A stretch of DNA of 60,145 bases from Bacteriovorax sp. Lineage in GTDB: Bacteria; Bdellovibrionota; Bacteriovoracia; Bacteriovoracales; Bacteriovoracaceae. The translations under genes and the position numbers were made by a program. Of this stretch, positions 28,459 to 43,416 are shown piece by piece. How positions within the stretch are numbered: the stretch's first letter is position 1; every line of letters begins with the position of its first letter. The notes beneath the pieces were generated by a model. The model saw only the letters and a program-made list of their open reading frames with translations, was not told where the DNA came from and ran no database searches. Location of the stretch: assembly GCA_028710485.1 (NCBI GenBank), contig JAQTTZ010000014.1, positions 1 to 60,145 of the forward strand, in the 5' to 3' direction.

Positions 28459-29655
28459 TTAGAGCTTTAAACCCACGTTAAAATGTATATGGGATGACTT
28501 GTCCTGAATATTATACCCATACTCAACATTGATTCCTGGAATGCTTATCTTCTTTAAGTAATAACGAAATCCAGTCCCAATAGTATTTTCATTAAGGTGT
28601 ACTCCTCCGTAAATGGGATTGATTAAAACGGTGCGGGTATTTTCAAAAAAAGCGACCGCGTATAAGCGATCCCAAACATGGTGTTGATACTGAAACATGG
28701 TGGCCGCATATCTTTGCATATGAATTGATTCACCATCGTATCCTCTGAAACCTTCGTGGGCCCCTTCTGAGAAATTATAAAAAAATGTTTTTGCAGAAGC
28801 GAGACCCAGGTTTTCAGAGAAGTTAACGAAATGCTGATCAAATATTGGATAAGTAGAAATGAATTCAGCTTTGCCATGAAAAAAAGTATCTCCTCCATTT
28901 TTTGGGCGAAGAGCATAGGCATTTGCTGTTATGTAATACCCTTTAAAAAGAGTGTCTAGTTGCTCATAAAATTTAATATTAAAACGCGAACGCAATCCTC
29001 CACCTTCAAACTTTTGCTCAATATTGGAGTTGCTTTGGACAATATCTTTCTTGAAGAAAATAGGTCCTGTTTTAAAAACCATATTCTTGTAGAAAAAATT
29101 TGGAGTGACCTCAAAAGCAGTCGTGCGAGATTCAAATTGCGTTTGAATGACTTTGTGGCGGTAAAAACGGGAGAGAGTATTTAAGCGAACAACTAGAGCT
29201 GAAATACCAAGATTAGGTGAGAAGAAATTTTCAGAGTTATAAAGTAAAAGATAATTTATTCCAGAATTCGTCCAGGCAACTGCTGGAACTAATGTTTCCA
29301 GACGGCCCATGAAATTGTTTTCAAACAGTCCAACCCCTCGCATATGGTAGTCGCCCGACTGAGAAATGAGAGGCACCGGAATGATCGACCACTTATCCTC
29401 TATATCAATTTTTAAAATTCCATTTTCAAGTTTGAATGACTTTAAAATATACTGAGCGTTTTGAGAGACGCGAATTCTCAAGTCTTCGAGTTCTAGAGGA
29501 GTAAGATCGTCGCCTATTTGAACGTTCACTCTTCGCAGCAAAGCCCATGGTTTGGTCTTCGTTTGGCCAGTAACTTGAATATCTTTAATGACTTCTGCTT
29601 TTAGCTGAGCAATAAATAAAATACTTATCCAAATAATTAAAAAGACAGCTTTCAT
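28459..29655 (-). CDS. POTRA-containing outer-membrane beta-barrel protein (Omp85-like)
   Basis: A 398-residue protein. After the signal peptide (ends QLKA) comes one POTRA-type domain (about 20-95: EVIKDIQVTGQTKTKPWALL, then LEDLRIRVSQNAQYILKSF), then a barrel of about 300 residues of alternating strands ending GLKL. It resembles a small Omp85 protein with a single POTRA domain. The substrate is unknown. GAGAGG lies about 9 nt before the start. Convergent with the DUF2141 gene and divergent from the phosphonate operon. Confidence 0.8.
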   Translation of the reverse strand: MKAVFLIIWISILFIAQLKAEVIKDIQVTGQTKTKPWALLRRVNVQIGDDLTPLELEDLRIRVSQNAQYILKSFKLENGILKIDIEDKWSIIPVPLISQSGDYHMRGVGLFENNFMGRLETLVPAVAWTNSGINYLLLYNSENFFSPNLGISALVVRLNTLSRFYRHKVIQTQFESRTTAFEVTPNFFYKNMVFKTGPIFFKKDIVQSNSNIEQKFEGGGLRSRFNIKFYEQLDTLFKGYYITANAYALRPKNGGDTFFHGKAEFISTYPIFDQHFVNFSENLGLASAKTFFYNFSEGAHEGFRGYDGESIHMQRYAATMFQYQHHVWDRLYAVAFFENTRTVLINPIYGGVHLNENTIGTGFRYYLKKISIPGINVEYGYNIQDKSSHIHFNVGLKL

Positions 29656-29807: not shown

Positions 29808-30737
29808 ATGCTAAATGATAATTTTTATTACTCGTTCTCGAGTGATGCTCAAAATGAAATCTATGACTATATAAAAGCTCTTCATATTTATAGCAGACCA
29901 GAAGAGGCAAAAGTTTTAGATACTGATGACTGTCCGACTTTTAAACGTGAAGTGGAAGAAGTCAGAAATGAACTTGAAAATGGAAAGCGCATTGTTATTG
30001 TAAAACCATTTATTGATATTCATAATAAATATACAATTTTAGAACAAAGAACGATCAACTGGTTAATAGGAAATGTATTAGGCGAAACGCTTGTTCAAAA
30101 TGAAGCGGGCGATAGAGCGATTTTAGTCTATGACCGCGACAGAACAAACTCCATGACAAAGGGCGCTCGCTACCATCAAACACGCGAAGGTGGAACAATC
30201 CATACTGATAATGTGAATGTTCCTTTTAAATGGGAATATCTGTTACTCGCTTGTATTGCTCCGGCCATGGCAGGTGGAGAAAATATTTTGGTTAATGCTT
30301 TAAATGTTCTTAAAATATTAAAAGAAAAATACCCTGATGTTTTAGCAATCCTTGAAAATAATTTCTTATGGGAGCAACGTGGAGTGGCCGATGCTACTTA
30401 TGAAGCACCAATCATTTCTTATAATCAAAAAGGCGAACCAGAATTCCGTCACCTTCGTCCGTATATGGAATCAGCCCATAATAAATTAGATCGTCCTTTA
30501 ACAGATGAACAAATGTATGCACTGGATACTCTCGATGCCATTTTAGAGCATTCAGATAATCAATACCGCCATACTTTTATGGCCGGTGAAATACTTCTTA
30601 CCTACGACGCTCAAGTTCTTCATGGCCGCACTAGTTTTTCAGACTCCTTCAATGCAGTCGTCATCCACGATTGGGTTAAAGATCATCACAAGCCGTTGAA
30701 GAGAACGATGGACCGCCTTTGGGCCAAAAAGAGATAA
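29808..30737 (+). CDS. TauD/TfdA-type Fe(II)/2-oxoglutarate oxygenase of the phosphonate operon
   Basis: A 309-residue cytoplasmic protein with the double-stranded beta-helix iron site: HTD at residues 132-134 (GGTIHTDNVN) and distal His272 (QVLHGRTSFSD). In TauD an Arg about 11 residues after the distal His binds 2-oxoglutarate; here that stretch (SFNAVVIHDW) has no Arg, so co-substrate binding may be altered or supplied from elsewhere. As the first gene of a phosphonate operon, the likely substrate is 2-aminoethylphosphonate or its lipid or nucleotide form, with C1 hydroxylation as the attractive reaction (compare PhnY). That is inference. AGGA lies 8 nt before the ATG; the next gene follows after 36 bp. 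Confidence 0.78.
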   Translation: MLNDNFYYSFSSDAQNEIYDYIKALHIYSRPEEAKVLDTDDCPTFKREVEEVRNELENGKRIVIVKPFIDIHNKYTILEQRTINWLIGNVLGETLVQNEAGDRAILVYDRDRTNSMTKGARYHQTREGGTIHTDNVNVPFKWEYLLLACIAPAMAGGENILVNALNVLKILKEKYPDVLAILENNFLWEQRGVADATYEAPIISYNQKGEPEFRHLRPYMESAHNKLDRPLTDEQMYALDTLDAILEHSDNQYRHTFMAGEILLTYDAQVLHGRTSFSDSFNAVVIHDWVKDHHKPLKRTMDRLWAKKR

Positions 30738-30773
30738 ATAGCAAAGATAAAAAAAGATAAAGAAAGGAAGCCT

Positions 30774-31517
30774 ATGTCACAATTAACAGCACTTATTTTA
30801 GCCGCAGGGTATGGCTCTCGTATATCGGACGTTACCACTGACCCGAAAAGCTTACTGAAAATCAATGAGAAATCATTAATGGACTGGCATTTCGAAGCGT
30901 TGAAAGAAGTAGGGATTAGAAATGTTATCGTCGTTACAGGTTACAAACGCGATGTGCTTGAAGCTTATCTTGCAAAATTTAAATTGGATTTCGATATTCA
31001 TTTTGCCATCAATGATGATTACCGTGTAAAAGGAAATACATATTCTTTTTATTACGGCCTTGAAAAAACTCACGGTGATTTTTTATTGTTTGATGCTGAC
31101 CTTATATACGACACTAAAATTTTAAAAGAATTTGTTAATGATAAAAACTCTAACCAAATCCTAGTCGGGGAGAGTTCAATCGATGATATCGAATCCGCTA
31201 AGGCCATGATTGATAAAGATGGGTTTGTCCGCATGACAATAGACAAACGAGCTGTCTCTGAAGAAGAGCGCACAAACTTTTCGTTTGCAGGAGAAGCTAT
31301 TGGTATTTTGAAATTCTCGAAGGCATACAGAGACGATATGTACCAGGCTTGCAAAAGTTTTCTAGCAGAAGAAAAAAATATTTCAAAAAACTGGGAACAT
31401 GTCATGAATGAGTTTTTACTTAATCACGACATGAGCATGCACCTTGCAGTCAGTGACCGCTGGGTAGAGATTGATAATAAAGAAGACTTGGAAAAAGCTA
31501 AAAGATTGTTTGAATGA
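30774..31517 (+). CDS. Stand-alone sugar-phosphate/phosphonate nucleotidyltransferase
   Basis: A 247-residue nucleotidyltransferase with an intact signature LILAAGYGSRI at residues 6-16, then DPKSLLKINEKSL and the metal-binding FDADLIYD. The family includes CTP:phosphocholine cytidylyltransferases (LicC) and the phosphonate cytidylyltransferase PntC. Translational coupling (4-nt overlap) to a CDP-alcohol phosphatidyltransferase suggests that it makes a CMP-activated head group, probably CMP-aminoethylphosphonate or its hydroxylated form. A second, degenerate domain of the same fold is fused to PEP mutase in this operon, so which one activates what is open. Confidence 0.82.
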   Translation: MSQLTALILAAGYGSRISDVTTDPKSLLKINEKSLMDWHFEALKEVGIRNVIVVTGYKRDVLEAYLAKFKLDFDIHFAINDDYRVKGNTYSFYYGLEKTHGDFLLFDADLIYDTKILKEFVNDKNSNQILVGESSIDDIESAKAMIDKDGFVRMTIDKRAVSEEERTNFSFAGEAIGILKFSKAYRDDMYQACKSFLAEEKNISKNWEHVMNEFLLNHDMSMHLAVSDRWVEIDNKEDLEKAKRLFE

Positions 31518-32383
31518 ATTGGTTACAAGAATACAAAATGTCCCTTAAAAACCTTCACGCAGAAGAGCCGCTTGACGTCTATTTTTATAGACCGTTAGCA
31601 TTTTTACTTGTGAAGACATTTTATTCATTACCCATTACTCCTAATCATTACTCTCTCGCTGCCTTGCTGGCCGGAATAGCGGCAGGATATAATTTCTTAC
31701 AAGGAACTTCTCTGGGGTTTAAATGGGGAGCCTTCTACTTTTTACTTTCTGCTATTTTTGATTGTTGCGATGGCATGGTTGCCAGACTCAAGAAAAATGG
31801 AACAGAGTTTGGTCGTTTAATTGACGGGGTGGTTGATTATGCAGTCAATGTTATAATTTATGTGACCCTAGCTCTAGGATTAAAAAAACAATACTCACCA
31901 GATTTATTTCAGCCTTGGCTTTTAGTTGTGGTGGCCGGAGTTTCAAAAGCGATCCACTCTATTTCATATGATCATTATCTCACCGAGTATTTGTCATACG
32001 AAAAAGGTGACGGCGGTTTTGTGGTTCGAGAAATAGAAGATCTAAGAAATAGACTTGATCAGAGCGAAAAATCAAATGCTCCATTTATTCGTCGCTTGGC
32101 CTTGAAACTTTATTTAGTTTATTCCAGTCTTCAGGCCGGGAATCAAGAACGCACTTTAGTTTTCAATCCAAGAATATATTGTGAGAGAAATCTTCGCGCA
32201 CTTAAAATGTGGTCATTTATTGGTCCTTCGGTTCATATTTCAGTTTTAATTATCACTTGTATATTAAATGAGCCTTACCTTCTGTTCTTCTATACGGTTG
32301 GCTTTGGTAATTTGTGGTTGATGATGATGTTTATTTATCAATTTAAAATTAACCAAGAACTGTCTGAGGAAAGAGCAGCATGA
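31514..32383 (+). CDS. CDP-alcohol phosphatidyltransferase (phosphonolipid synthase candidate)
   Basis: A 289-residue membrane protein with the exact family motif DG-x2-AR-x8-G-x3-D-x3-D: Asp86-Gly87, Ala90-Arg91, Gly100, Asp104 and Asp108. Hydrophobic helices occur around residues 45-65, 70-85, 110-130, 235-255 and 260-280. Such enzymes move a CMP-linked head group onto an alcohol, or the reverse, at the inner membrane. In this operon the likely reaction is CMP-phosphonate plus diacylglycerol or ceramide to phosphonolipid plus CMP. A roughly 50-residue insert (about 165-215) is charged and unusual. It overlaps both neighbours by 4 nt. Confidence 0.88.
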   Translation: MNWLQEYKMSLKNLHAEEPLDVYFYRPLAFLLVKTFYSLPITPNHYSLAALLAGIAAGYNFLQGTSLGFKWGAFYFLLSAIFDCCDGMVARLKKNGTEFGRLIDGVVDYAVNVIIYVTLALGLKKQYSPDLFQPWLLVVVAGVSKAIHSISYDHYLTEYLSYEKGDGGFVVREIEDLRNRLDQSEKSNAPFIRRLALKLYLVYSSLQAGNQERTLVFNPRIYCERNLRALKMWSFIGPSVHISVLIITCILNEPYLLFFYTVGFGNLWLMMMFIYQFKINQELSEERAA

Positions 32384-33018
32384 TTATCGCATTGCTCATT
32401 GGTTTAATCACAGGCTTTCTCATCTGCATTCCGGTCGGCCCGATTAATGTATGGGTTGTGAATACTTTGATCAAACATGATTTTAAATCTGCCTTCGCCA
32501 TCGCCGTAGGTGGGTCTTTAATGGATTTTATTTACTTCATGGTTATCTTAAGCGGTCTTTCATTATTTCATTTTTCTCCAAGGACAATTCTGATTTTAAA
32601 AATTGTCGGAGTGGTCTTTTTACTGGTGTTTGGTCTTAACGAATTATTAGTAAAAAAACAAAATTTCGCCCTAGATAAAGATTTAGAAAAAAAAGAGCCG
32701 ACAGCATTCGGCTTTTTTCTATTGGGTGTAGCAATTTATTCTTCTAACCCAACTCTTGTTGCAACGATGTCGGGCTTGGCAGCAATCATTAAATCGTGGA
32801 ATCTTTTTTTAAACGATTTCATGAGTTATTTCGCGCTCTCATTAGGGCTAGCTTTGGGTTCTGCTTCTTGGTTCTACTTACTCTTAAGAATTGTTATGAA
32901 ATATCAAAATAAAATCCCTGAAAGATTTTTTATTAATTTTAGTCGTGCTTGTGGCGCCCTAATTGTCCTCTTTGGTCTATATATGGCATTTAATGTTTAT
33001 AAGGAAAACTTTGTATGA
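32380..33018 (+). CDS. LysE/RhtB-family membrane transporter
   Basis: A 212-residue membrane protein with six probable helices and the LysE-family N-terminal GPIN-type motif ([16 protein letters not shown]). The family exports amino acids and related compounds. ATGA overlaps join it to the phosphatidyltransferase before it and PEP mutase after it, which implies a role in the phosphonate pathway: export of a phosphonate, relief of excess intermediate, or movement of a head group. No direct evidence for the substrate. Confidence 0.82.
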
Positions 33019-34652
33019 AAAAACCAATTATCAGAAAAACAACTCAACTAAGAAATATGTTGAATTCAAGTGAACTAGAATTTTTAATGGAAGCTCATAA
33101 CGGCATGTCTGCGAAAATTGCTGAAGAAGCAGGTTTCAAGGGTATCTGGGGTTCTGGACTTTCTATTTCTGCGGCCCTTGGAGTTCGCGATAATAACGAA
33201 GCGTCTTGGACTCAAGTTTTAGAAGTTGTAGAATTTATGAGTGATGCGACTACTATTCCTATCCTTCTTGATGGTGATACTGGTTACGGTAACTTTAATA
33301 ATATGAGAAGACTTGTAACAAAGCTTGAGCAACGTGGAGTTGCCGGTGTTTGCATCGAAGATAAAGTTTTTCCTAAAACAAATTCGTTCCTTCGCACAGA
33401 GGCGCAGCCGCTAGCTGATATGGATGAATTTTGTGGAAAAATTAAAGCAGGTCAGGATACTAAGCTAGATTCCGACTTCAATATCATCGCGCGCGTTGAA
33501 GCTTTGATTGCTGGATGGGGAATGGGAGAGGCACTAAAAAGAGCTGATGCTTACCGTCTGGCCGGAGCAAACGGAATTCTTATGCACTCAAAAATTTCTA
33601 AGCCGGATGAAATCCTGGCTTTCATGAAAGAATGGGGAGAAAGAAGCAAATCGTGTCCGATCGTTATAGTTCCAACAAAATATTATGCAACTCCGACAAA
33701 TGCTTTTAGAGAAGCGAATATCTCTGTTTGTATCTGGGCCAACCACCAAATGAGAATGGCGGTAACGGCAATGCAAAATGTAACAAAGACTATCTTTGAA
33801 GAGCAATCTTTAATGAATGTGGAAGATAAGATTGTTTCGGTTGCAGAACTTTTCCGCCTTCAAAATGATAAAGAGCTTGAAGCTGCAGAAAAACTTTATT
33901 TATCAGTGGCCGATGCTGATAAACCAAGAGCGATTTTCTTAGCTGCTTCAAGAGGAGCTGAGCTTAAAGAATTAACTGAAGACAAACCCAAAGTTCTAAT
34001 CGATATCAATGGGAAGCCGTTAATTGAGCAATCAATTAATAACTTCTACGAACACAATATCAAAGATATCTCAATCGTTCGTGGATATAAAAAAGAAGCA
34101 TTCAAACTTCAAAACATTAAATATTTTGATAATGATAATTTCGAAACGACAAGCGAGCTTTCTTCGCTTTTCTTAGCGAAAAAAGAAATTGTTGATCATA
34201 CAGTTATTTCTTACGGGGATATCCTTTATAGAAAGTATATCTTGTCTCGTTTGCTAGAAGAAAAAGGCGACATCACAATTGTAGTTGATGCAACAATCGG
34301 TGATCGCGCTCCAAGTTATGTTGGAGACTTTGTACTTTGTTCACGGCCTCATCGTAATGTTTTCAATGAAGCACCAGCTGAGTTGAAAGGGGTTAGATTT
34401 GGGCAAGCGGGGGATAACAAAGAAGTTCAAGGTGAATGGATTGGATTGATTAAAACAAATAAAGTTGGCTCTGAAGTACTTTCTAAAACATTAGAAGAAC
34501 TATCAACTACGAGTGAATTTAGTAAACTTAAGCTTCCAGATCTTATGAATAAACTTCTAGAGAAAAAAGTCAGAATTAATGTAATGTATATTGATGGCCA
34601 TTGGCTAGATATAGACAATTATGCCGACGTTTCACGCGGTCAGAAATTTTAA
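33015..34652 (+). CDS. Phosphoenolpyruvate mutase fused to a nucleotidyltransferase domain
   Basis: A 545-residue fusion. Residues about 1-295 are PEP mutase, which rearranges PEP to phosphonopyruvate and makes the C-P bond. The diagnostic EDK-x5-NS motif is present ([10 protein letters not shown], 115-124), as are [10 protein letters not shown] and [14 protein letters not shown]. Residues about 303-545 are a nucleotidyltransferase domain ([41 protein letters not shown]). Its first loop is AASRGAEL rather than LAAGxGSRL, so activity is uncertain. PepM-nucleotidyltransferase fusions are known for making CMP-phosphonates. It is coupled to the LysE gene, and ppd follows 16 bp later. Confidence 0.93.
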
Positions 34653-34668
34653 TTTAAAAGAGGAACCT

Positions 34669-35826
34669 ATGATATCAGCAGACAAGTTTTTAATACCAGC
34701 TCGAGAGTTGGGATTTAATTTTTTTACAGGAACACCTTGTTCTTATTTAAAACCATTTATTAATTACGTTATAGACACAGATGGTTTTGATTTTATTGAT
34801 AGTGTAAATGAAGGTGAAGCTGTGGCCATCGCAGCAGGAGCTACCGTAGCAGGAAAGCGCGCTGTCGTTATGTTTCAAAACTCAGGTTTGGGAAATGCAG
34901 TTAATCCTCTTACTTCTCTAACTTATACTTTTAACTTACCGGTAATGGTGATTACAACTTTAAGAGGAGAGCCAGGTGGGGCCCACGATGAACCACAGCA
35001 TGAGTTGATGGGACAAATCACCACTGACCTGCTTGAGGCCATGAAATTGAAATGGGCTTTTTTTCCCAACATTGAATCAGATATTATGCCTGCTTTAAAA
35101 TTGGCCGATGATTATATGAAATCGACTAATCAGCCATTTGTATTTGTGATGAGAAAAGATGATATCGCTGAATACAAATTACAAAAGAAACCTGCAATTT
35201 CACAAAAATCTTTTTCAGTAAATCATGCCGATTTATTTGAGCTTGACTATAAAGAGCGCACAACAAGAACTCCTGTTCTTGAAGTGATTCAAAAAGAACT
35301 AGGAACAGAAGTGGCCGTGATTGCAACCACTGGAAAAACTGGACGTGAACTCTACGAAGTTGGCGATCTTCATAATCAATTTTATATGGTTGGTTCAATG
35401 GGATGCGCTTTAGCTTTTGGTCTTGGAATCGCTCTTACAAAACCAAATTTAAAAGTGGTCGTTATTGATGGCGATGGTGCTCTTTTAATGAGAACCGGAA
35501 CAATGGCAACAGTTGGTGCTTACCGTCCGAAAAATTTAGTTCATATTTTAATTGATAATGAAGCTCATGATTCAACTGGTGGGCAAGGGACTGTGACTGG
35601 TGGAGTTTCCTTTGGCGCAATAGCCCGTGGGTTTGGATATGAGCAAGTTTACTCAACTGATAAGCTAGACGCTTTCAAAAATATACTTAATGAAGTGAAA
35701 AATACAAAAGCTTCAACTTTTATTCATTTGAAAACACAGAAAGGTTCTCCTGAAAAACTCGGAAGACCAAAGGTTACGCCGGCAGAAGTTAGTGTCCGTT
35801 TTGCGGAATTTGTTCAGTCTAAATAA
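34669..35826 (+). CDS. Phosphonopyruvate decarboxylase
   Basis: A 385-residue thiamine diphosphate enzyme that pulls the unfavourable mutase reaction forward by converting phosphonopyruvate to phosphonoacetaldehyde. Evidence: TGTPCSYLKPFINYV and NEGEAVAIAAGA (cofactor-activating Glu) at the N-terminus, and VVIDGDGALLMRTGTM with a downstream Asn (ILIDNEAHDSTGGQ), the ThDP/Mg motif. It is shorter than general ThDP decarboxylases, as usual for this family. The ATG at 34669 follows AGAGGA; an in-frame ATG at 34621 lies inside the mutase gene. A terminator follows. Confidence 0.93.
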   Translation: MISADKFLIPARELGFNFFTGTPCSYLKPFINYVIDTDGFDFIDSVNEGEAVAIAAGATVAGKRAVVMFQNSGLGNAVNPLTSLTYTFNLPVMVITTLRGEPGGAHDEPQHELMGQITTDLLEAMKLKWAFFPNIESDIMPALKLADDYMKSTNQPFVFVMRKDDIAEYKLQKKPAISQKSFSVNHADLFELDYKERTTRTPVLEVIQKELGTEVAVIATTGKTGRELYEVGDLHNQFYMVGSMGCALAFGLGIALTKPNLKVVVIDGDGALLMRTGTMATVGAYRPKNLVHILIDNEAHDSTGGQGTVTGGVSFGAIARGFGYEQVYSTDKLDAFKNILNEVKNTKASTFIHLKTQKGSPEKLGRPKVTPAEVSVRFAEFVQSK

Positions 35827-35837
35827 TAATTACAATT

Positions 35838-35860
35838 GGCAGGAGAAATCCTGCCTTTCT
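35838..35860 (+). terminator. Terminator after the phosphonopyruvate decarboxylase gene
   Basis: A 7-bp stem GGCAGGA (35838-35844) with 35849-35855, a GAAA loop, followed by TTTCTT. It ends the first part of the phosphonate operon. The M13 peptidase and aminotransferase genes lie beyond it. Confidence 0.75.
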
Positions 35861-36028
35861 TATTCCAATACCTGTCTAAATTAATTCCAAAAATAATCCA
35901 AGGGAAAACAATCAAAGAGAAACAAGCAAAGAGAAACTAGTCTATTTTTTAGACTGTTGATTGCCATTTTATTGAGCTAGAATTAGATCAAGATATTACT
36001 ATACAGGAATGAATTTCTAGGAGAAATC

Positions 36029-38011
36029 ATGTTTACTCATTTTGCTTTATTGGCGAGTCTTTTCGCTGTCACCAGCTCTTATGGGGCCTCGAGTGAGATA
36101 CCATTAAAGAGAGAATTTCCGCTCAATAATAAAATCAATCCATGTGAAAATCTTTATGAACATGCTTGTTCAAAAACAATTGAAAGTTTTCAATTGCGCG
36201 CTGACCGCAGAAGACACTCTTTTGCTTTTAGTGATTCGGCCGAACGTATTTTGGAATTTAAAAAGAATTATATTAAAGAGCTGACTTCCAAAGAAGCGGA
36301 TTCGCCGGTTTCAGGTCAAATTAAAAACTTTTATATTTCTTGCATGAATAAAGAGGCAAGAGCAAAAGAAGAAAGTAGTGAAATCCAAAAAATGATGGAA
36401 GATCAGAAAAAAATTACCAATAAAAAAGACTGGCTAAAATCGCAGGCAGAAAAAATTCATAGCGGTAAAAGTGGATTTATTGGTTACTCCGCGACTGATA
36501 ATTTTGATGATGCCAGAAAGTCGGATTTAATGTTGAGTCCAGGGTATTCTTTATTGCCTGAAAAAAGTTATGCTAAAAATGAAGAACTAATTAAGGCGCT
36601 TGAAGTGCTTGTTACTGATTATTTCAACACGATTGGTGCGGATCGCCCAACTGATCGAGCAAAGACAGTTCTTAAATATGAAATTGATCAGCAAAACAAT
36701 CGCTTCTATCCAGTTGAAGCTCGCATTGCTTATTCTCAACGAAGATTCGTTACTAAAAAAGAATTGATTAAAAAATATCCTGATCTTCAGCTGAAAGTTT
36801 TTCTCAATCAAATTCCCGACACAACTCTTGTTCGCAATATGAATCCAAAAACAATTCCTTTCCTCAATAAAATTGCCAAAGATTATTCTCTTGATGAACT
36901 AAAGACGCTGGAAATGTTTTATGAATTTAAATCGAAGTTAGACCAAGGGTATCCAAAGTTTTACGACGAAGCTTTTGTTTTTGCTAATAAGTTTCTTGGT
37001 GGAAAAAATAAAAGATCTGAGTTAGATGAAGAGTGTACAACGCTCGCGATGCATCGATTCGGAGCTGAGTTTGACTACCTCGTATTGCCTAAAATGTTTC
37101 CGAACTTTTCTTCAGAAAAAGTAGCGGACTTAGTTGGTAAAATTAAAAGCAGCATCCTGACTTCTTTATCTAAAAATACCTGGCTAACTCCTCCTGCTAA
37201 AAAAGAGGCCGAGAGAAAAATATCAACTGCTTTTATGCGTTTAGTTTCACCTCAAAAATTTGAAGACTGGAAATTTCTTCCAATTGCCGAATATGGAAAG
37301 GACACTTATCTGGCCAATATTGAAAAACGCAATGAGATTTCTGAAAACCGAGAATTTAAGTTTTTTAGAGAACTTAAAGATATCCGTTCTTGGGAAGGAG
37401 TTGAGCCATTAGAAGTTAATGCTTTTTATCAGTCTTCATATAATCAATTCACAATGCTTCAGGGGATTTTACAATACCCATTCTATGATCAAAAGAGCTC
37501 TGAGATTGAAAACCTTGCGGGCGTTGGAATGGTCGTGGGCCATGAGCTCGGCCATGCCATTGATGACCAAGGCTCAAAGTATGATGCCGATGGAAAGCTT
37601 AGAGATTGGATGACGGCCAAAGATCTTAAAAAGTTTAAAGAATTAACAAAGTCTTTAATTGATCAATACTCAAAAGCAGGAATGAATGGCGCGTATACAC
37701 TTGGTGAAAACATTGGTGACCTCGTGGGTTTAACAGCTGCTTACGATGCTTCTTTTTCACCGGCAAATACTGCGTCTGAAGCAGATTTAAAAACACAAAA
37801 GAAAAATTTCTTTTTAAACTATGCTCGTTCTTGGTGTGAGGTTCAGCTCCCTGGAGTTAGAGATTTGCGTCTCAAGTCTGATCCGCATTCACTTGGAGTG
37901 GCCAGAGTTAATGAAGTGGTAAAACACTTTGCTGGTTTCAAAGAAGCATTCAATTGTCTTGACTCTGATCCAATGGTCTTATCCGCTGAGCAAAGAGTTC
38001 ATATCTGGTAG
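36029..38011 (+). CDS. Secreted M13-family metallopeptidase (neprilysin-like)
   Basis: A 660-residue zinc endopeptidase. A signal peptide (residues 1-19) is followed by the N-terminal M13 helical domain (NPCENLYEHAC) and the catalytic domain: HELGH with His505, Glu506 and His509, the third-ligand motif ENIGD with Glu560, and the family C-terminus (SLGVARVNEVV, FKEAFNC). It should act in the periplasm or outside and cut small peptides. It sits between the phosphonate decarboxylase and aminotransferase genes, 33 bp before the latter, which suggests a shared transcript; a functional link is not evident. GGAG precedes the ATG. Confidence 0.92.
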   Translation: MFTHFALLASLFAVTSSYGASSEIPLKREFPLNNKINPCENLYEHACSKTIESFQLRADRRRHSFAFSDSAERILEFKKNYIKELTSKEADSPVSGQIKNFYISCMNKEARAKEESSEIQKMMEDQKKITNKKDWLKSQAEKIHSGKSGFIGYSATDNFDDARKSDLMLSPGYSLLPEKSYAKNEELIKALEVLVTDYFNTIGADRPTDRAKTVLKYEIDQQNNRFYPVEARIAYSQRRFVTKKELIKKYPDLQLKVFLNQIPDTTLVRNMNPKTIPFLNKIAKDYSLDELKTLEMFYEFKSKLDQGYPKFYDEAFVFANKFLGGKNKRSELDEECTTLAMHRFGAEFDYLVLPKMFPNFSSEKVADLVGKIKSSILTSLSKNTWLTPPAKKEAERKISTAFMRLVSPQKFEDWKFLPIAEYGKDTYLANIEKRNEISENREFKFFRELKDIRSWEGVEPLEVNAFYQSSYNQFTMLQGILQYPFYDQKSSEIENLAGVGMVVGHELGHAIDDQGSKYDADGKLRDWMTAKDLKKFKELTKSLIDQYSKAGMNGAYTLGENIGDLVGLTAAYDASFSPANTASEADLKTQKKNFFLNYARSWCEVQLPGVRDLRLKSDPHSLGVARVNEVVKHFAGFKEAFNCLDSDPMVLSAEQRVHIW

Positions 38012-38044
38012 TCGCTAATAGTTGCAACAAATGATGAGGTTTTT

Positions 38045-39157
38045 ATGAAACAAGTTAAACGAAATATTCTTCTTAATCCAGGGCCAGCTACGACAACTGA
38101 TACCGTGAAAAATGCAATGGTTGTTTCTGATATTTGTCCGCGTGAATTAGAGTTTGGTGAACTTACTCTTTCAGTTCGCAATGATTTGATAAAGGCTGCC
38201 TACGGAGAAAAAAATCATACCTGTGTAATGCTTACTTCTTCGGGAACTGGTGGAGTTGAAGCATGTTTAACATCAGTTATTCCTCATGATAAAAAAGTTT
38301 TGATTTTAAATAATGGCGCTTACGGCGAAAGAATGCAAAAAATTTGTGATGCTTACAGCGTTGGACACGTGGACTATAATCAAGAGTGGGGATTTCCGCT
38401 GGACTTAAACGCTGTCGAAAAACTTCTTCAAGAACACCTTGGAGAAATTTCTCATTTGGCCTTTATTCACCATGAAACAACAGTGGGAATCCTAAATCCA
38501 CTTACTGAAATTTCAGCTCTTTCTCAAAAATATAAAGTAGAGACAATCGTCGATGCTATGTCGTCTTTTGCTGGAATGATGATCGATGTAGAAAAAGATA
38601 ATATTCATTATCTCGTATCTTCATCTAATAAATGTATTCAGGGAATGGCCGGGATAAGTTTTGTCATAGCTAATACCAAGTCTCTTCTTAAAACCGGAGA
38701 AATCAAGGCCCGCAATTTTTATTTCAATCTACTTGAGAATCATCTTTATCTAGAGAGAAATAAGCAATTCCTTTTTACTCCTCCAGTGCAAACACTTTAT
38801 GCTTTAAGACAAGCCGTGACTGAGTACTTCGAAGAAGGTCCAAAGAATCGATTTGCTCGTTACGCTTCAATGTATGAAATCATGAAGAAAAAAGTTCGCG
38901 AATTAGGGTTTGAATTTTTAATTGAAGAAAAATATCACGCAAAATTATTAACGGCCATTATGGACCCAAAATCTCCAGACTACTCGTTCAATGAAATGCA
39001 CGATTATTTATTCGAGCGCGGATTTACAATTTACCCAGGTAAGGTTGGAAATAAAAATACTTTTAGACTTTCTAATATTGGAGCTATTTATCCAAAAGAT
39101 ATAGAAGATTTTCTAAAAGTTTTTGAAGAGTATCTTCGCATCAAAAAAATTATCTAA
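38045..39157 (+). CDS. phnW: 2-Aminoethylphosphonate:pyruvate aminotransferase
   Basis: A 370-residue class V PLP aminotransferase. It matches PhnW: ILLNPGPATTTDTVKNAM, DICPRELEFGEL, SGTGGVEACLTSVIP, HHETTVGILNPL, DAMSSFAGM, and the PLP Lys196 in SSSNKCIQG. PhnW interconverts phosphonoacetaldehyde and 2-aminoethylphosphonate. Next to PEP mutase and without a phosphonatase gene, it should run in the biosynthetic direction. It follows the M13 gene by 33 bp and is separated from the YkgJ-type gene by a single base. Confidence 0.92.
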   Translation: MKQVKRNILLNPGPATTTDTVKNAMVVSDICPRELEFGELTLSVRNDLIKAAYGEKNHTCVMLTSSGTGGVEACLTSVIPHDKKVLILNNGAYGERMQKICDAYSVGHVDYNQEWGFPLDLNAVEKLLQEHLGEISHLAFIHHETTVGILNPLTEISALSQKYKVETIVDAMSSFAGMMIDVEKDNIHYLVSSSNKCIQGMAGISFVIANTKSLLKTGEIKARNFYFNLLENHLYLERNKQFLFTPPVQTLYALRQAVTEYFEEGPKNRFARYASMYEIMKKKVRELGFEFLIEEKYHAKLLTAIMDPKSPDYSFNEMHDYLFERGFTIYPGKVGNKNTFRLSNIGAIYPKDIEDFLKVFEEYLRIKKII

Positions 39158-40578: not shown

Positions 40579-41562
40579 ATGAAGATCATTTTAACATCGC
40601 TTTTATTTATTTTTGCTGGGCTTAGTTTTGCCTACGAGCGCGAATTCATTGTTACAGATATCGTCAGTGACCAAAGTTTACAGATCCAGCGACTCGATAA
40701 ACAAGTCGTTGTTGCTCCGGGCGATATTCTTGTTATTTATTCTCATGAATCTAAGCTGGTCCTGGGCTATGCCAGAGTGGCCTCTATTACTGATAACTCA
40801 GATCTTTTTATTGCAATTATTGAGACACATAATAAAAATGGTCTGATTCGCCCTGAAAACTATTTGCGAAAATTAGACTTAACCAAAATTAATAATGATA
40901 TTCCAGCTCGCTATGACCTTGCCTACAAAGCTGAAAGTAGTGTGGCGGCCAAATACCGTCCATTAGTGTATGCGGGATTGGCCCAAGGAATGACAGCTTC
41001 TAACTTAAATAAAAAAGAATGGCTTTTAGGTCCATCAATTCTGGCCTATGGGTTAACGTCGAATACTCAACTTGATGTCAATTTAGCCTCTACAATTTTC
41101 GGTGTTGCCAATTTAGCAGTAAAAAATAAATTGATTGATACTGATGATTACGAACTCTCAGTCGAAAATGGTTTTCAGTATTATCACACCAGCAGAAAGG
41201 GTTCTTATCAGTTTACTGGAAATTTGGACATGACCTCCAATTCCAATTTTAAATCCTATGCCAAATTTAAATTATTCACCAAGAAGCCCGAAGATCAGTC
41301 ACTCAGTAATAGTGAAGAGTACACGCGAGATTTAAACTTAGAATTGCAATTATTTTACGGATATATTTTTTCAAGCTGGAATCAATTAATCTTCGGACCA
41401 AAGATTGATGTTAATAAGAAAAATGTTGGGGGAGTGATTGGGTATTATATCGTCGATAAGAATATCAACACCATGTTTGGTGTTTCTTCTACCGATTTTT
41501 CAGAATTACGTTTAGGAAAACAAGCCTATCTTCTTAATTTAGATTTTTGGTGGAGATTTTAA
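40579..41562 (+). CDS. Predicted outer-membrane beta-barrel protein
   Basis: A 327-residue protein with a signal peptide (ends LSFAYE). An N-terminal small beta domain (about 20-105, YEREFIVTDIVSDQSLQIQR) is followed by about 210 residues of alternating strands ending LDFWWRF, a typical barrel C-terminus with terminal Phe. No family recognised. The stop overlaps the convergent mtnC stop region by 4 bp. Confidence 0.65.
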   Translation: MKIILTSLLFIFAGLSFAYEREFIVTDIVSDQSLQIQRLDKQVVVAPGDILVIYSHESKLVLGYARVASITDNSDLFIAIIETHNKNGLIRPENYLRKLDLTKINNDIPARYDLAYKAESSVAAKYRPLVYAGLAQGMTASNLNKKEWLLGPSILAYGLTSNTQLDVNLASTIFGVANLAVKNKLIDTDDYELSVENGFQYYHTSRKGSYQFTGNLDMTSNSNFKSYAKFKLFTKKPEDQSLSNSEEYTRDLNLELQLFYGYIFSSWNQLIFGPKIDVNKKNVGGVIGYYIVDKNINTMFGVSSTDFSELRLGKQAYLLNLDFWWRF

Positions 41563-42239
41563 AATCTAATATCCTCAAATGTTTTTACCTGATCATGACC
41601 TGTATAGGGAACATCTTCTAAGCGCACCAATTGAATGGTTTTCAGCCCAGCTTTTTTAGCAGCATCCAATTCTTCTGAAATATCGGAGAGAAAAAGAATT
41701 TCTTTTGGATCAAGTTTTAATTCTTTACTGATATTGAGGTAGGAGTTTTCATCACGCTTGTGACCGATAGAAGTATCAAAATTATTTGAGATAAAATGGT
41801 TGAGATCACCATAGATTGAGTAACCAAAAAGAACTTTTTGGGCCTCTACTGAGCCAGATGAATATATTCCGAGAGAAATATTGGCATTTTTCCATTTTTC
41901 CAAAGCAACCGGGACATCTTGATAGACATGACCTTTGAGCTCTCCCGAATTGTATCCTTCACTCCAGATTAACCCCTGAATTTTTTTTAAAGAAGGATGT
42001 TTACGATCTATTCTAATCCATTCGATTAATTGTGCGATTGATTGCTCATCATCTATTTGGATTTTTTTTTCTTCTGCCACCGTTTTTTTAGTTTCTACTA
42101 AAATGTCTTTTATCGTCTCTTCATTACGATGTAATTTGATATAAGAAGCAATTCTATCTTTTGAATAGGGGAAAAGAATATCGTGAACAAAGCTAATCGA
42201 AGTGGTTGTTCCTTCAATATCCATTAAAATATATTTCAT
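41559..42239 (-). CDS. mtnC: Enolase-phosphatase E1 (methionine salvage)
   Basis: A 226-residue HAD-superfamily enzyme that enolises and dephosphorylates 2,3-diketo-5-methylthiopentyl-1-phosphate to acireductone. The N-terminal MDIEGTTTSISFVHDILFPY is diagnostic for E1, with nucleophile Asp7; IYSSGSVEAQ and LFLSDISEELDAAKKAGL supply the remaining HAD motifs. It is the last gene of the mtnB-mtnD-mtnC operon, overlapping mtnD by 4 nt. Confidence 0.95.
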   Translation of the reverse strand: MKYILMDIEGTTTSISFVHDILFPYSKDRIASYIKLHRNEETIKDILVETKKTVAEEKKIQIDDEQSIAQLIEWIRIDRKHPSLKKIQGLIWSEGYNSGELKGHVYQDVPVALEKWKNANISLGIYSSGSVEAQKVLFGYSIYGDLNHFISNNFDTSIGHKRDENSYLNISKELKLDPKEILFLSDISEELDAAKKAGLKTIQLVRLEDVPYTGHDQVKTFEDIRF

Positions 42240-42769
42240 GGAGTATGTGCTTTGTTATATTCGTTATCAATTCCAGATTCAGTATAATTTGGAACCCAGC
42301 CTTCCATGTTTGAAAATATTCGAATGGCCTTTACAAAATATTCAGGAGCAAGATCAAACCAGTGACGAAAATTTTTGGGAACTGACATGAAGTCGCCACG
42401 CTCACAAGTTACGCAGAGAATTTCTTCATTATCCAAGTGAAACCAAAATTTACCAACACCATCTACAAAGAAGCGTATTTCATCTTCGCTATGAGTGTGC
42501 TCTTTCATAAATTTTTCTCTTAAGCCCGTGAGGTTTGGAGTAAGTGGGTGGACGTTGATAACGTCTGCTACGGCGTAACCATTTTTATCCATGAAAGGCT
42601 TTAGTTCATGAGCGTAAGCTTCAAGAATCGTCTCTTGGCTTGCATCGTCGGCCAGTGGCTTAGATGCTTCCCACTTCTCAATCTTAATTCCGTGTTGAGA
42701 TAATAGATTTTTAATTGTTTTAAAATCTGTAACCGTAATATTTTCTTTTGCCAATAAAAGTTTAGCCAT
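42236..42769 (-). CDS. mtnD: Acireductone dioxygenase (methionine salvage)
   Basis: A 177-residue cupin. The metal site HTHSEDEIRFF provides two His and a Glu, and FRHWFDL the last His; GVGKFWFHLDNE fits the family core. With Fe it makes the keto acid KMTB and formate; with Ni it makes an off-pathway product plus CO. The start overlaps the mtnB stop (TAATG) and the end overlaps mtnC. Confidence 0.95.
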   Translation of the reverse strand: MAKLLLAKENITVTDFKTIKNLLSQHGIKIEKWEASKPLADDASQETILEAYAHELKPFMDKNGYAVADVINVHPLTPNLTGLREKFMKEHTHSEDEIRFFVDGVGKFWFHLDNEEILCVTCERGDFMSVPKNFRHWFDLAPEYFVKAIRIFSNMEGWVPNYTESGIDNEYNKAHTP

Positions 42770-43416
42770 TAATAACCTCTGCGTGAGTTTAAGTAGTACT
42801 TAAAGATATATTCTAATACTTCCAAGTGTCTTTTTGCTTCTTCTACACTGTCGCCCCAGACATAGACGCCATGGCCACGCAGGAGAAGTCCGTAATTGTT
42901 TTTTTGCTCTAAGATAGACGGTTTGATTTGTTCAGCTAGTAGAGCAATGTCTTGGGTATTATCAAAACATGGAATATTAATTTTTAACTCGTGAGTTTTA
43001 ATTCCTCTGAAGCCTTTTAAAAGTTCAAGATTTTCAATCGTGGCGTATGGAAGACCTTTAAAGAGATCGGCAAATAAAAGTGAATCTAGCAGATGGCTAT
43101 GAAGAACACAGTTCGCTTTAGTTATTTGATAAATGGTTAAGTGAATATCTGTCTCATCAGAAGACTTTCGACCTGTGTCTATATAATCAGGATGCATTTT
43201 TCTTGTTTCAAAATAAATTGGAAGAAAATTATCTTCAGTAAATTTACTTTTATCAATCCCTGATTCTGATACGAGGGCGATGTCAGGACTGGTTTTAGAA
43301 CGCAGGGAGTAGTTACCACTGGTCGCTGGGTTATGGCCTAAACTATTCATCACTCGGACAAGCATGGCCAGTTTTTTCATTTCTTCGTAATCTTGAGCAC
43401 TAATAATAAAGGACAA
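42769..43416 (-). CDS. mtnB: Methylthioribulose-1-phosphate dehydratase (methionine salvage)
   Basis: A 215-residue zinc enzyme of the class II aldolase fold. The metal-binding pattern is CVLHSHLLDS plus LLRGHGVYVWG, with GHNPATSGNYSLR at the N-terminus. It dehydrates methylthioribulose-1-phosphate to the diketo compound used by MtnC. It is the first gene of the operon and faces the aminotransferase gene across 128 bp. The upstream steps (mtnA and mtnN, mtnK or mtnP) are not in this window. Confidence 0.93.
   Translation of the reverse strand: MSFIISAQDYEEMKKLAMLVRVMNSLGHNPATSGNYSLRSKTSPDIALVSESGIDKSKFTEDNFLPIYFETRKMHPDYIDTGRKSSDETDIHLTIYQITKANCVLHSHLLDSLLFADLFKGLPYATIENLELLKGFRGIKTHELKINIPCFDNTQDIALLAEQIKPSILEQKNNYGLLLRGHGVYVWGDSVEEAKRHLEVLEYIFKYYLNSRRGY

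Follow-up and report, generated by a model that had tools for sequence, protein, structure and literature searches.

Candidate genes for a hydroxylated aminoethylphosphonate sphingolipid head group in a Bacteriovorax genome

Bacteriovorax (Bdellovibrio) stolpii reportedly contains sphingophosphonolipids with a 1-hydroxy-2-aminoethylphosphonate head group, a description attributed to Watanabe (2001) and Jayasimhulu (2007). Here we describe a locus that probably directs the synthesis of a hydroxylated 2-aminoethylphosphonate (AEP) head group and its attachment to ceramide, located at positions 29808-39157 of a 60,145-nucleotide stretch from a Bacteriovorax sp. draft genome (contig JAQTTZ010000014.1, forward strand; hereafter the window). 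Direct observations cover which genes and motifs are present, the conservation of gene order, and the co-occurrence and linkage with genes of sphingolipid type. The hydroxy-AEP lipid of B. stolpii appears in PMC8154272, and a review describes the serine palmitoyltransferase (SPT) of this species together with an unusual phosphonate linkage, singling out the head group as unique (PMC6148460; papers given by PMC number are cited from excerpts throughout). No paper assigning genes to a bacterial sphingophosphonolipid head group was found in a search that most subscription journals lay outside, and excerpts of the literature on Bacteriovorax As-1 and HI3 yielded no phosphonolipid genes. A paper on Black Sea sphingolipids contained none of the six terms sought in it.

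A pepM cluster of Nostoc, adapted from earlier work and compared with Burkholderia, has been presented as a phosphonolipid pathway (PMC5987646). Compared by enzyme types rather than by sequence, it shares with our locus a CDP-alcohol phosphatidyltransferase (CAPT), a 2-oxoglutarate (2OG)-Fe(II) oxygenase, an NTP transferase, pepM, ppd and an AEP transaminase. The excerpts do not tie the Nostoc cluster to ceramide, whereas the CAPT and the operon of the Bacteriovorax family are linked to sphingolipid-type genes. The Pnt pathway (Rice et al. 2019, PMC6697681), in which AEP is activated with cytidine monophosphate (CMP), has the same combination of a PepM-PF12804 fusion and a separate PntC-like gene; the clusters studied in that paper contain LicD-like or glycosyltransferase genes, whereas the Bacteriovorax locus has a CAPT instead. 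The locus is a new form of the previously proposed pepM phosphonolipid clusters, in which the acceptor is most likely ceramide.

Gene content and conservation of the phosphonate operon

The source genome (G000) is a 4.3 Mb draft (99.93% complete, 8.04% contamination) whose closest named relatives carry the names Bacteriovorax sp. and Bacteriovoracaceae. All genes between 29808 and 39157 lie on the plus strand:

29808..30737, plus strand: Fe(II)/2-oxoglutarate dioxygenase of the TauD family, proposed AEP 1-hydroxylase (PF02668, 74.2 bits)
30774..31517, plus strand: PntC/LicC-like cytidylyltransferase, proposed CTP:(hydroxy)AEP cytidylyltransferase (PF12804, 50.5 bits)
31514..32383, plus strand: CAPT, proposed CMP-phosphonate:ceramide phosphonotransferase (PF01066, 45.3 bits, cut-off 22)
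32380..33018, plus strand: LysE-type membrane protein, exporter or flippase candidate (PF01810, 65.9 bits)
33015..34652, plus strand: phosphoenolpyruvate (PEP) mutase (PepM) fused to a C-terminal nucleotidyltransferase-like domain (TIGR02320, EDKxxxxxNS)
34669..35826, plus strand: phosphonopyruvate decarboxylase (Ppd; TIGR03297)
35838..35855, plus strand: terminator-like stem-loop right behind Ppd (7-pair stem with 5 G-C pairs, then TTTCTTATTC)
36029-38011, plus strand: M13 peptidase, between Ppd and PhnW
38045..39157, plus strand: AEP transaminase (PhnW), proposed to act in the AEP-forming direction (TIGR03301)

From the dioxygenase to PhnW the intergenic gaps are 36, -4, -4, -4, 16, 202 and 33 bases, and ATGA overlaps at 31514, 32380 and 33015 join the nucleotidyltransferase, CAPT, LysE and PepM genes, in agreement with the four ATGA-joined genes of a first-pass annotation of this DNA. 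The PEP mutase, Ppd and PhnW named in that annotation all pass curated cut-offs: PEP mutase, with its EDKxxxxxNS motif at residue 115, scores 393.3 bits against 319.55, Ppd 416.5 against 312.5, and PhnW 411.8 against 360.8, the last falling below the cut-off of the narrower TIGR02326 (347.6 vs 400.8). It was likewise right in listing two nucleotidyltransferase domains (both PF12804) and a CAPT with an exact catalytic motif, and left the TauD-family dioxygenase unnamed. Through the three core enzymes, PEP would be isomerised to phosphonopyruvate, decarboxylated to phosphonoacetaldehyde and transaminated to AEP. Every catalytic step of the pathway, the acceptor, and where and when the hydroxyl is added are what we infer from these genes.

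The arrangement is conserved among relatives. CAPT homologues were sought in 129 genomes of the order, 48 of which matched at E 0.001, many of the matches being short and weak, and 20 loci of the family were drawn by CAPT score from those 48 genomes, leaving out the window's own locus and G041. Since the order dioxygenase-nucleotidyltransferase-CAPT was kept in 17 of the 20 loci and PepM came next in 16 of these 17 (the remaining contig ends within the CAPT gene), the arrangement is not attributable to chance. In 14 of these 16 operons, LysE preceded PepM. The three exceptions to the order were a CAPT without the rest (L038), a lone CAPT relative (L053) and a G061 locus (L046) with CAPT, LysE and a nucleotidyltransferase-PhnW fusion, in a genome lacking the dioxygenase and having no PepM match at 1e-60. 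The fused nucleotidyltransferase-aminotransferase gene of G061 (L046:8993-10849), which adjoins LysE and CAPT, has a layout like that of T. denticola Tde1415; judged by its genes, this variant without a dioxygenase would perhaps yield a plain AEP lipid.

At E 1e-40, the dioxygenase was detected in 20 of the 368 phylum genomes; all 20 belong to one family, and they include all 14 examined genomes of the genus. Five of the 23 loci of a genome-contig scan lay outside the family, in one Methylococcaceae draft and four Pelagibacteraceae assemblies. Within the family, the operon proteins of the source genome are 87-95% identical to those of G009.

Toward the end of the locus, the Ppd open reading frame opens at 34621, and Ppd probably starts at the ATG at 34669 because the alignment of 11 of 12 homologues begins at residue 17 of the longer frame. 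The position of the stem-loop right behind Ppd suggests that PhnW may be transcribed separately in the source strain; terminator-like sites in the region are weak as a class (12, compared with 7.2, standard deviation 3.3, in shuffles), and a promoter scan of the region gave 18 sites, fewer than in shuffles (28.9). The M13 peptidase was rejected as a part of the pathway, since it is absent between Ppd and PhnW in five relatives (L039, L047, L049, L050 and L052) in which these two genes adjoin directly. Elsewhere in the window, at 41559-43416 on the minus strand, are three genes resembling methionine-salvage enzymes, which we take to be an enolase-phosphatase, an acireductone dioxygenase and an MtnB-like aldolase.

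Proposed activation and hydroxylation of the head group

Of the two PF12804 domains, one forms the stand-alone gene and the other the C-terminal part of the PEP mutase fusion. Residues were compared among near-full-length proteins, available from 20 of 20 sets for the stand-alone protein and from 15 of 20 for the fusion, the others being truncated at contig ends. The stand-alone nucleotidyltransferase matched T. denticola PntC (Tde1415, 6pd1) over residues 6-243 of 247 (E 3.1e-13) and also LicC (1jyk) over 4-110, with G12, G14, R16, P24-K25, D107, D109, E208, E232 and D234 invariant in the 20 sequences; it thus shows full-length homology to T. denticola PntC together with the catalytic loop and the metal residues. 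The amine-contacting residues of the T. denticola enzyme are Glu104 and Glu196, whereas Ari-PntC resembles LicC more closely (Rice et al. 2019, PMC6697681); by alignment, the corresponding positions in our protein are Asp107, the LicC residue, and Glu208, the PntC residue. A fused plus a separate nucleotidyltransferase is a known layout (PMC6697681). In the fused domain, all 15 full-length sequences show E, D or G where the loop normally carries an arginine, and this domain is disfavoured on that ground as the main CMP-transfer enzyme. The stand-alone PntC-like enzyme would couple hydroxylated AEP to CMP.

The TauD-family dioxygenase is the candidate source of the 1-hydroxyl. Its iron ligands (H132-x-D134 and H272) were invariant in 21 sequences, and its AlphaFold model (predicted local distance difference test score, pLDDT, 84.5) matched TtnM at rank 1, FrbJ at rank 3 and TmpA at rank 25; TmpA and FrbJ have the 2OG dioxygenase fold and iron ligands in common with it. 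TmpA (NF049936), a phosphonate hydroxylase like FrbJ, was also the best NCBIfam match, at 46.6 bits far under the cut-off of 400, and we do not file the protein as TmpA. Hydroxylation at C1 would probably take place on free AEP, as with PhnY*, whose product is R-hydroxy-AEP (PMC8154272). The two enzymes, compared by described function and not by sequence, would have the same product, but PhnY* belongs to a degradation pathway whereas the operon dioxygenase sits in a biosynthetic operon.

The distance from TmpA also fits a different role, in which the dioxygenase, instead of hydroxylating AEP at C1, acts on the finished lipid, on the ceramide chains or at another position. The top fold match, TtnM, comes from tautomycetin biosynthesis, and a dioxygenase paralogue in G000 stands away from the reference phosphonate genes, both of which point in the same direction. 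Nevertheless, in all 17 operon loci of the family and in five loci outside it, the gene stands directly before the PntC-like gene, the closest PDB entry to its protein by sequence is the phosphonate hydroxylase FrbJ (5eqn, E 1.6e-12), and the reported B. stolpii head group carries a 1-hydroxyl (PMC8154272). We consider the different role doubtful, while giving it appreciable weight, and favor the dioxygenase as the AEP 1-hydroxylase. The paralogue (43%; G000:C148:98280-99179, L176:10242-11186) lies beside none of the reference phosphonate genes and was rejected as a pathway component; second dioxygenase copies are also present in G006, G008, G009 and G014.

The transferase and its predicted ceramide acceptor

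The CAPT carries the motif D-x2-D-G-x2-A-R-x8-G-x3-D-x3-D at residue 83, with its fixed residues invariant in 17 sequences, and its predicted structure (pLDDT 88) had AF2299 as the best fold match (E 2.8e-5). Some enzymes of the CAPT family use non-lipid acceptors. The claim of the first-pass annotation that a phosphatidyltransferase implies a lipid product is therefore weak when taken alone, and it is the linkage to sphingolipid-type genes, set out below, that carries the point. In the proposed reaction, CAPT would displace CMP from CMP-(1-hydroxy-2-aminoethyl)phosphonate using the primary hydroxyl of ceramide, forming a sphingophosphonolipid. Eukaryotic cholinephosphotransferase-type (Kennedy) enzymes similarly combine a CMP-activated head group with a lipid alcohol, but the fold match to them is weak (8ul9, E 1.1), and for CAPT we propose a C-P donor and a ceramide acceptor.

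Ceramide would be supplied by unlinked SPT, GNAT acyltransferase and reductase genes. On contig G000:C222, an SPT-type gene, whose product is matched best in the PDB by two serine palmitoyltransferases (8guh and 3a2b, E 8e-108), is followed by a GNAT-like acyltransferase gene and then by an NAD-dependent reductase (SDR) gene, a layout that parallels the spt, bcerS and cerR set of Caulobacter (PMC11087976). By analogy, the GNAT protein would be the ceramide synthase. The three genes share 95, 94 and 81% identity with their counterparts in G009; since this parallels the identity of the operon proteins, contamination is an unlikely source of the contig. Sphingolipid loci were examined in a selection among 71 SPT-positive and 43 desaturase-positive genomes, and the GNAT gene lay beside SPT in 16 of the 17 family SPT loci examined, the exception being G061.

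Co-occurrence was assessed in the 129 genomes of the order, with thresholds of E 1e-60 for PepM and 1e-90 for SPT. SPT was found in 71 genomes, four of which (G065, G066, G074 and G109) match at only 44-50% identity and may encode other enzymes, and the GNAT gene in 67, with both present in 65. Among the 20 dioxygenase-positive genomes, the GNAT gene was present in all and SPT in 19. PepM was likewise found in 20 genomes, all SPT-positive (p 1.6e-6 by genome), although p-values at this level overstate the association because the genomes are related.

Direct linkage between the two gene groups came from two relatives. In the phosphonate operon of G015 (L081, assigned to this genome by coordinates), the nucleotidyltransferase gene overlaps LysE with no CAPT between them, and the CAPT of this genome is found on a different contig, where it is flanked by a second GNAT gene copy and by a desaturase-type gene whose product belongs to PF08557, Lipid_DES, the sphingolipid delta-4 desaturase family (33.2 vs cut-off 23). 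This CAPT groups with the operon CAPTs of the genus (92/90) on a tree made without L027, L028, L087 and L045, in which 10 of 25 inner branches are open forks and a long-branch join was flagged, and which was used only for this placement and for a separate CAPT2 clade. In G016, a Lipid_DES-family gene stands directly before LysE-PepM-Ppd (L131); no CAPT was found in this draft in the E 0.001 search. Homologues of the desaturase occur in 43 of the 129 genomes, 42 of them with SPT or the GNAT gene, and a PDB search with the protein gave chance-level matches only. Among these homologues (e.g., L101-L130), the match contains a stop in G038, G044, G051 and G074 and is split in G048. Phytosphingosine makes up most of the long-chain base of B. 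stolpii; in some relatives, a DES-type hydroxylase could account for it.

An alternative is that the head group goes to diacylglycerol (DAG) or alkylacylglycerol (AAG), giving glycerophosphonolipids, and that sphingolipid genes co-occur merely because they are common in the family. SPT is indeed common in the order, and the Nostoc cluster of the same enzyme types, given as a phosphonolipid pathway, comes from a paper with DAG and AAG among its abbreviations (PMC5987646). The Pelagibacteraceae also fit this alternative: all four assemblies (L095, L097, L099 and L100) have the dioxygenase and a PntC-like gene side by side, L095 also encodes a cytidylyltransferase-PepM fusion, and a CAPT-like protein was recognized by Pfam in all three assemblies tested (L095, L097 and L099), one of these proteins having nearly the same N-terminus as a protein of L100. 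Since none of the four shows an SPT match, either the dioxygenase-PntC-CAPT logic would extend beyond sphingolipid makers, or the Pelagibacteraceae assemblies miss SPT. What argues against a glycerolipid acceptor is the position of the G015 CAPT next to GNAT and sphingolipid-desaturase genes, the desaturase gene inside the G016 operon, and the description of the B. stolpii lipid as a sphingolipid (PMC6148460). In addition, the Methylococcaceae draft UBA2778 has the dioxygenase-to-PepM run (55% GC) together with an SPT of another lineage (58% GC) that passes the NCBIfam SerpalmtaseBetaP cut-off (634 vs 500) and has GNAT and SDR homologues within 5 kb; judged by sequence, this genome pairs the same phosphonate operon with different ceramide-type genes. 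We regard a glycerolipid acceptor as unlikely.

Still less probable, in our estimation, is that the phosphonate is added to a surface glycan or another polyol, with CAPT using a non-lipid acceptor like the di-inositol-phosphate-phosphate synthases. The nucleotidyltransferase and CAPT do match the IPCT-DIPPS family NF041135, at scores far under the cut-off (66.2 and 35.5 vs 580), and G053, of the same family of bacteria, carries PepM, Ppd, an NT2-like gene and PhnW with no dioxygenase or CAPT, in a neighborhood suggestive of sugar-nucleotide metabolism. However, the ten window genes scanned matched neither LicD nor any glycosyltransferase family, and CAPT is linked to sphingolipid-type genes. 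The G053 locus itself (L152), with the order PepM-Ppd-nucleotidyltransferase-PhnW, is perhaps a glycan-directed phosphonate cluster.

Several observations weigh against ceramide as the acceptor. The best sequence and fold matches of CAPT (AF2299 and inositol-phosphate synthases) are not ceramide enzymes. The SPT-type gene of G000, though its best library match is SPT, is under the curated NCBIfam cut-off (486.7 vs 640), and the GNAT copy of G000 is under the Pfam cut-off (18.2 vs 20.7; the G015 homologue is above it), with no relevant NCBIfam match and chance-level matches only in the PDB search. Co-occurrence is weak when counted by genus (8 of 8 PepM genera vs 33 of 48; p=0.037), because 13 of the 20 PepM genomes belong to one genus. 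G012 has the operon and no SPT match at 1e-90 or 1e-20 (GNAT and desaturase genes are present and the genome is 84% complete), and G053, one of the 20 PepM genomes, lacks the dioxygenase and the operon CAPT. Both linkage cases come from drafts labelled from one sampling series, the G016 contig begins inside the desaturase gene, and G000 has no desaturase match at 1e-20. Finally, none of the four Pelagibacteraceae assemblies, which at 0.7-1.0 Mb may be incomplete, has an SPT match at 1e-20.

Taken against these points, transfer of a hydroxylated AEP head group to ceramide still appears the likely function of the locus. With somewhat less confidence, we favor a broader proposal, in which CAPT would be a new sphingolipid head-group transferase that takes a hydroxylated C-P head group directly from a CMP-phosphonate to ceramide. 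This would constitute a bacterial Kennedy-type route to complex sphingolipids. Parts of the route would have been reshuffled in modular fashion together with genes for ceramide acyltransferases and eukaryote-like sphingolipid desaturases, and a gammaproteobacterium with a ceramide pathway of its own would share some of them.

A second CAPT locus in the source genome (G000:C129, L077:6537-12012) contains a myo-inositol-1-phosphate synthase, a protein weakly resembling LPG_synthase_TM and a nucleotidyltransferase, and judged by these genes is probably a separate inositol-type head-group system. Its CAPT was rejected as the transferase of the phosphonate pathway on account of the neighboring myo-inositol-1-phosphate synthase and nucleotidyltransferase and its separate clade on the CAPT tree. 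Near both CAPT loci, on the opposite strand, lie genes for 398-residue proteins (window 28459-29655 and L077:4015-5211, both minus strand) that are 34% identical over 395 residues; one has POTRA similarity below the cut-off, and no such gene was matched in L039. These are perhaps outer-membrane proteins tied to the lipids.

Relation to the B. stolpii lipids and implications

The predicted product matches the reported B. stolpii sphingophosphonolipids in both head group and backbone, and the nearest named relatives of the source genome share the genus name. The chemistry of the B. stolpii lipid is known, and to our knowledge the Bacteriovorax locus is the best candidate for the gene set of a lipid of this type. 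The first-pass annotation had proposed AEP synthesis, CMP activation, transfer to a lipid and, possibly, the B. stolpii lipid as the product, a sequence of steps that gains support from the SPT-GNAT-reductase genes, the two linkage cases, the candidate hydroxylase and the closest relatives. Its term "complete" is too strong for this pathway, since the ceramide part lies elsewhere in the genome and the acceptor and the hydroxylation are deduced.

The gene set makes the B. stolpii-type head group testable by knockout and reconstitution and offers genome markers for C-P sphingolipids. If the proposed reaction is correct, the CAPT family extends to a ceramide acceptor with a phosphonate donor. The locus also suggests a biosynthetic source for hydroxy-AEP, a compound that may be rather abundant, as inferred from degradation genes by the authors of PMC8154272. 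Phosphonolipids reportedly withstand regular phospholipases (PMC5987646), and such resistance may be relevant to a predator that lives within its prey.

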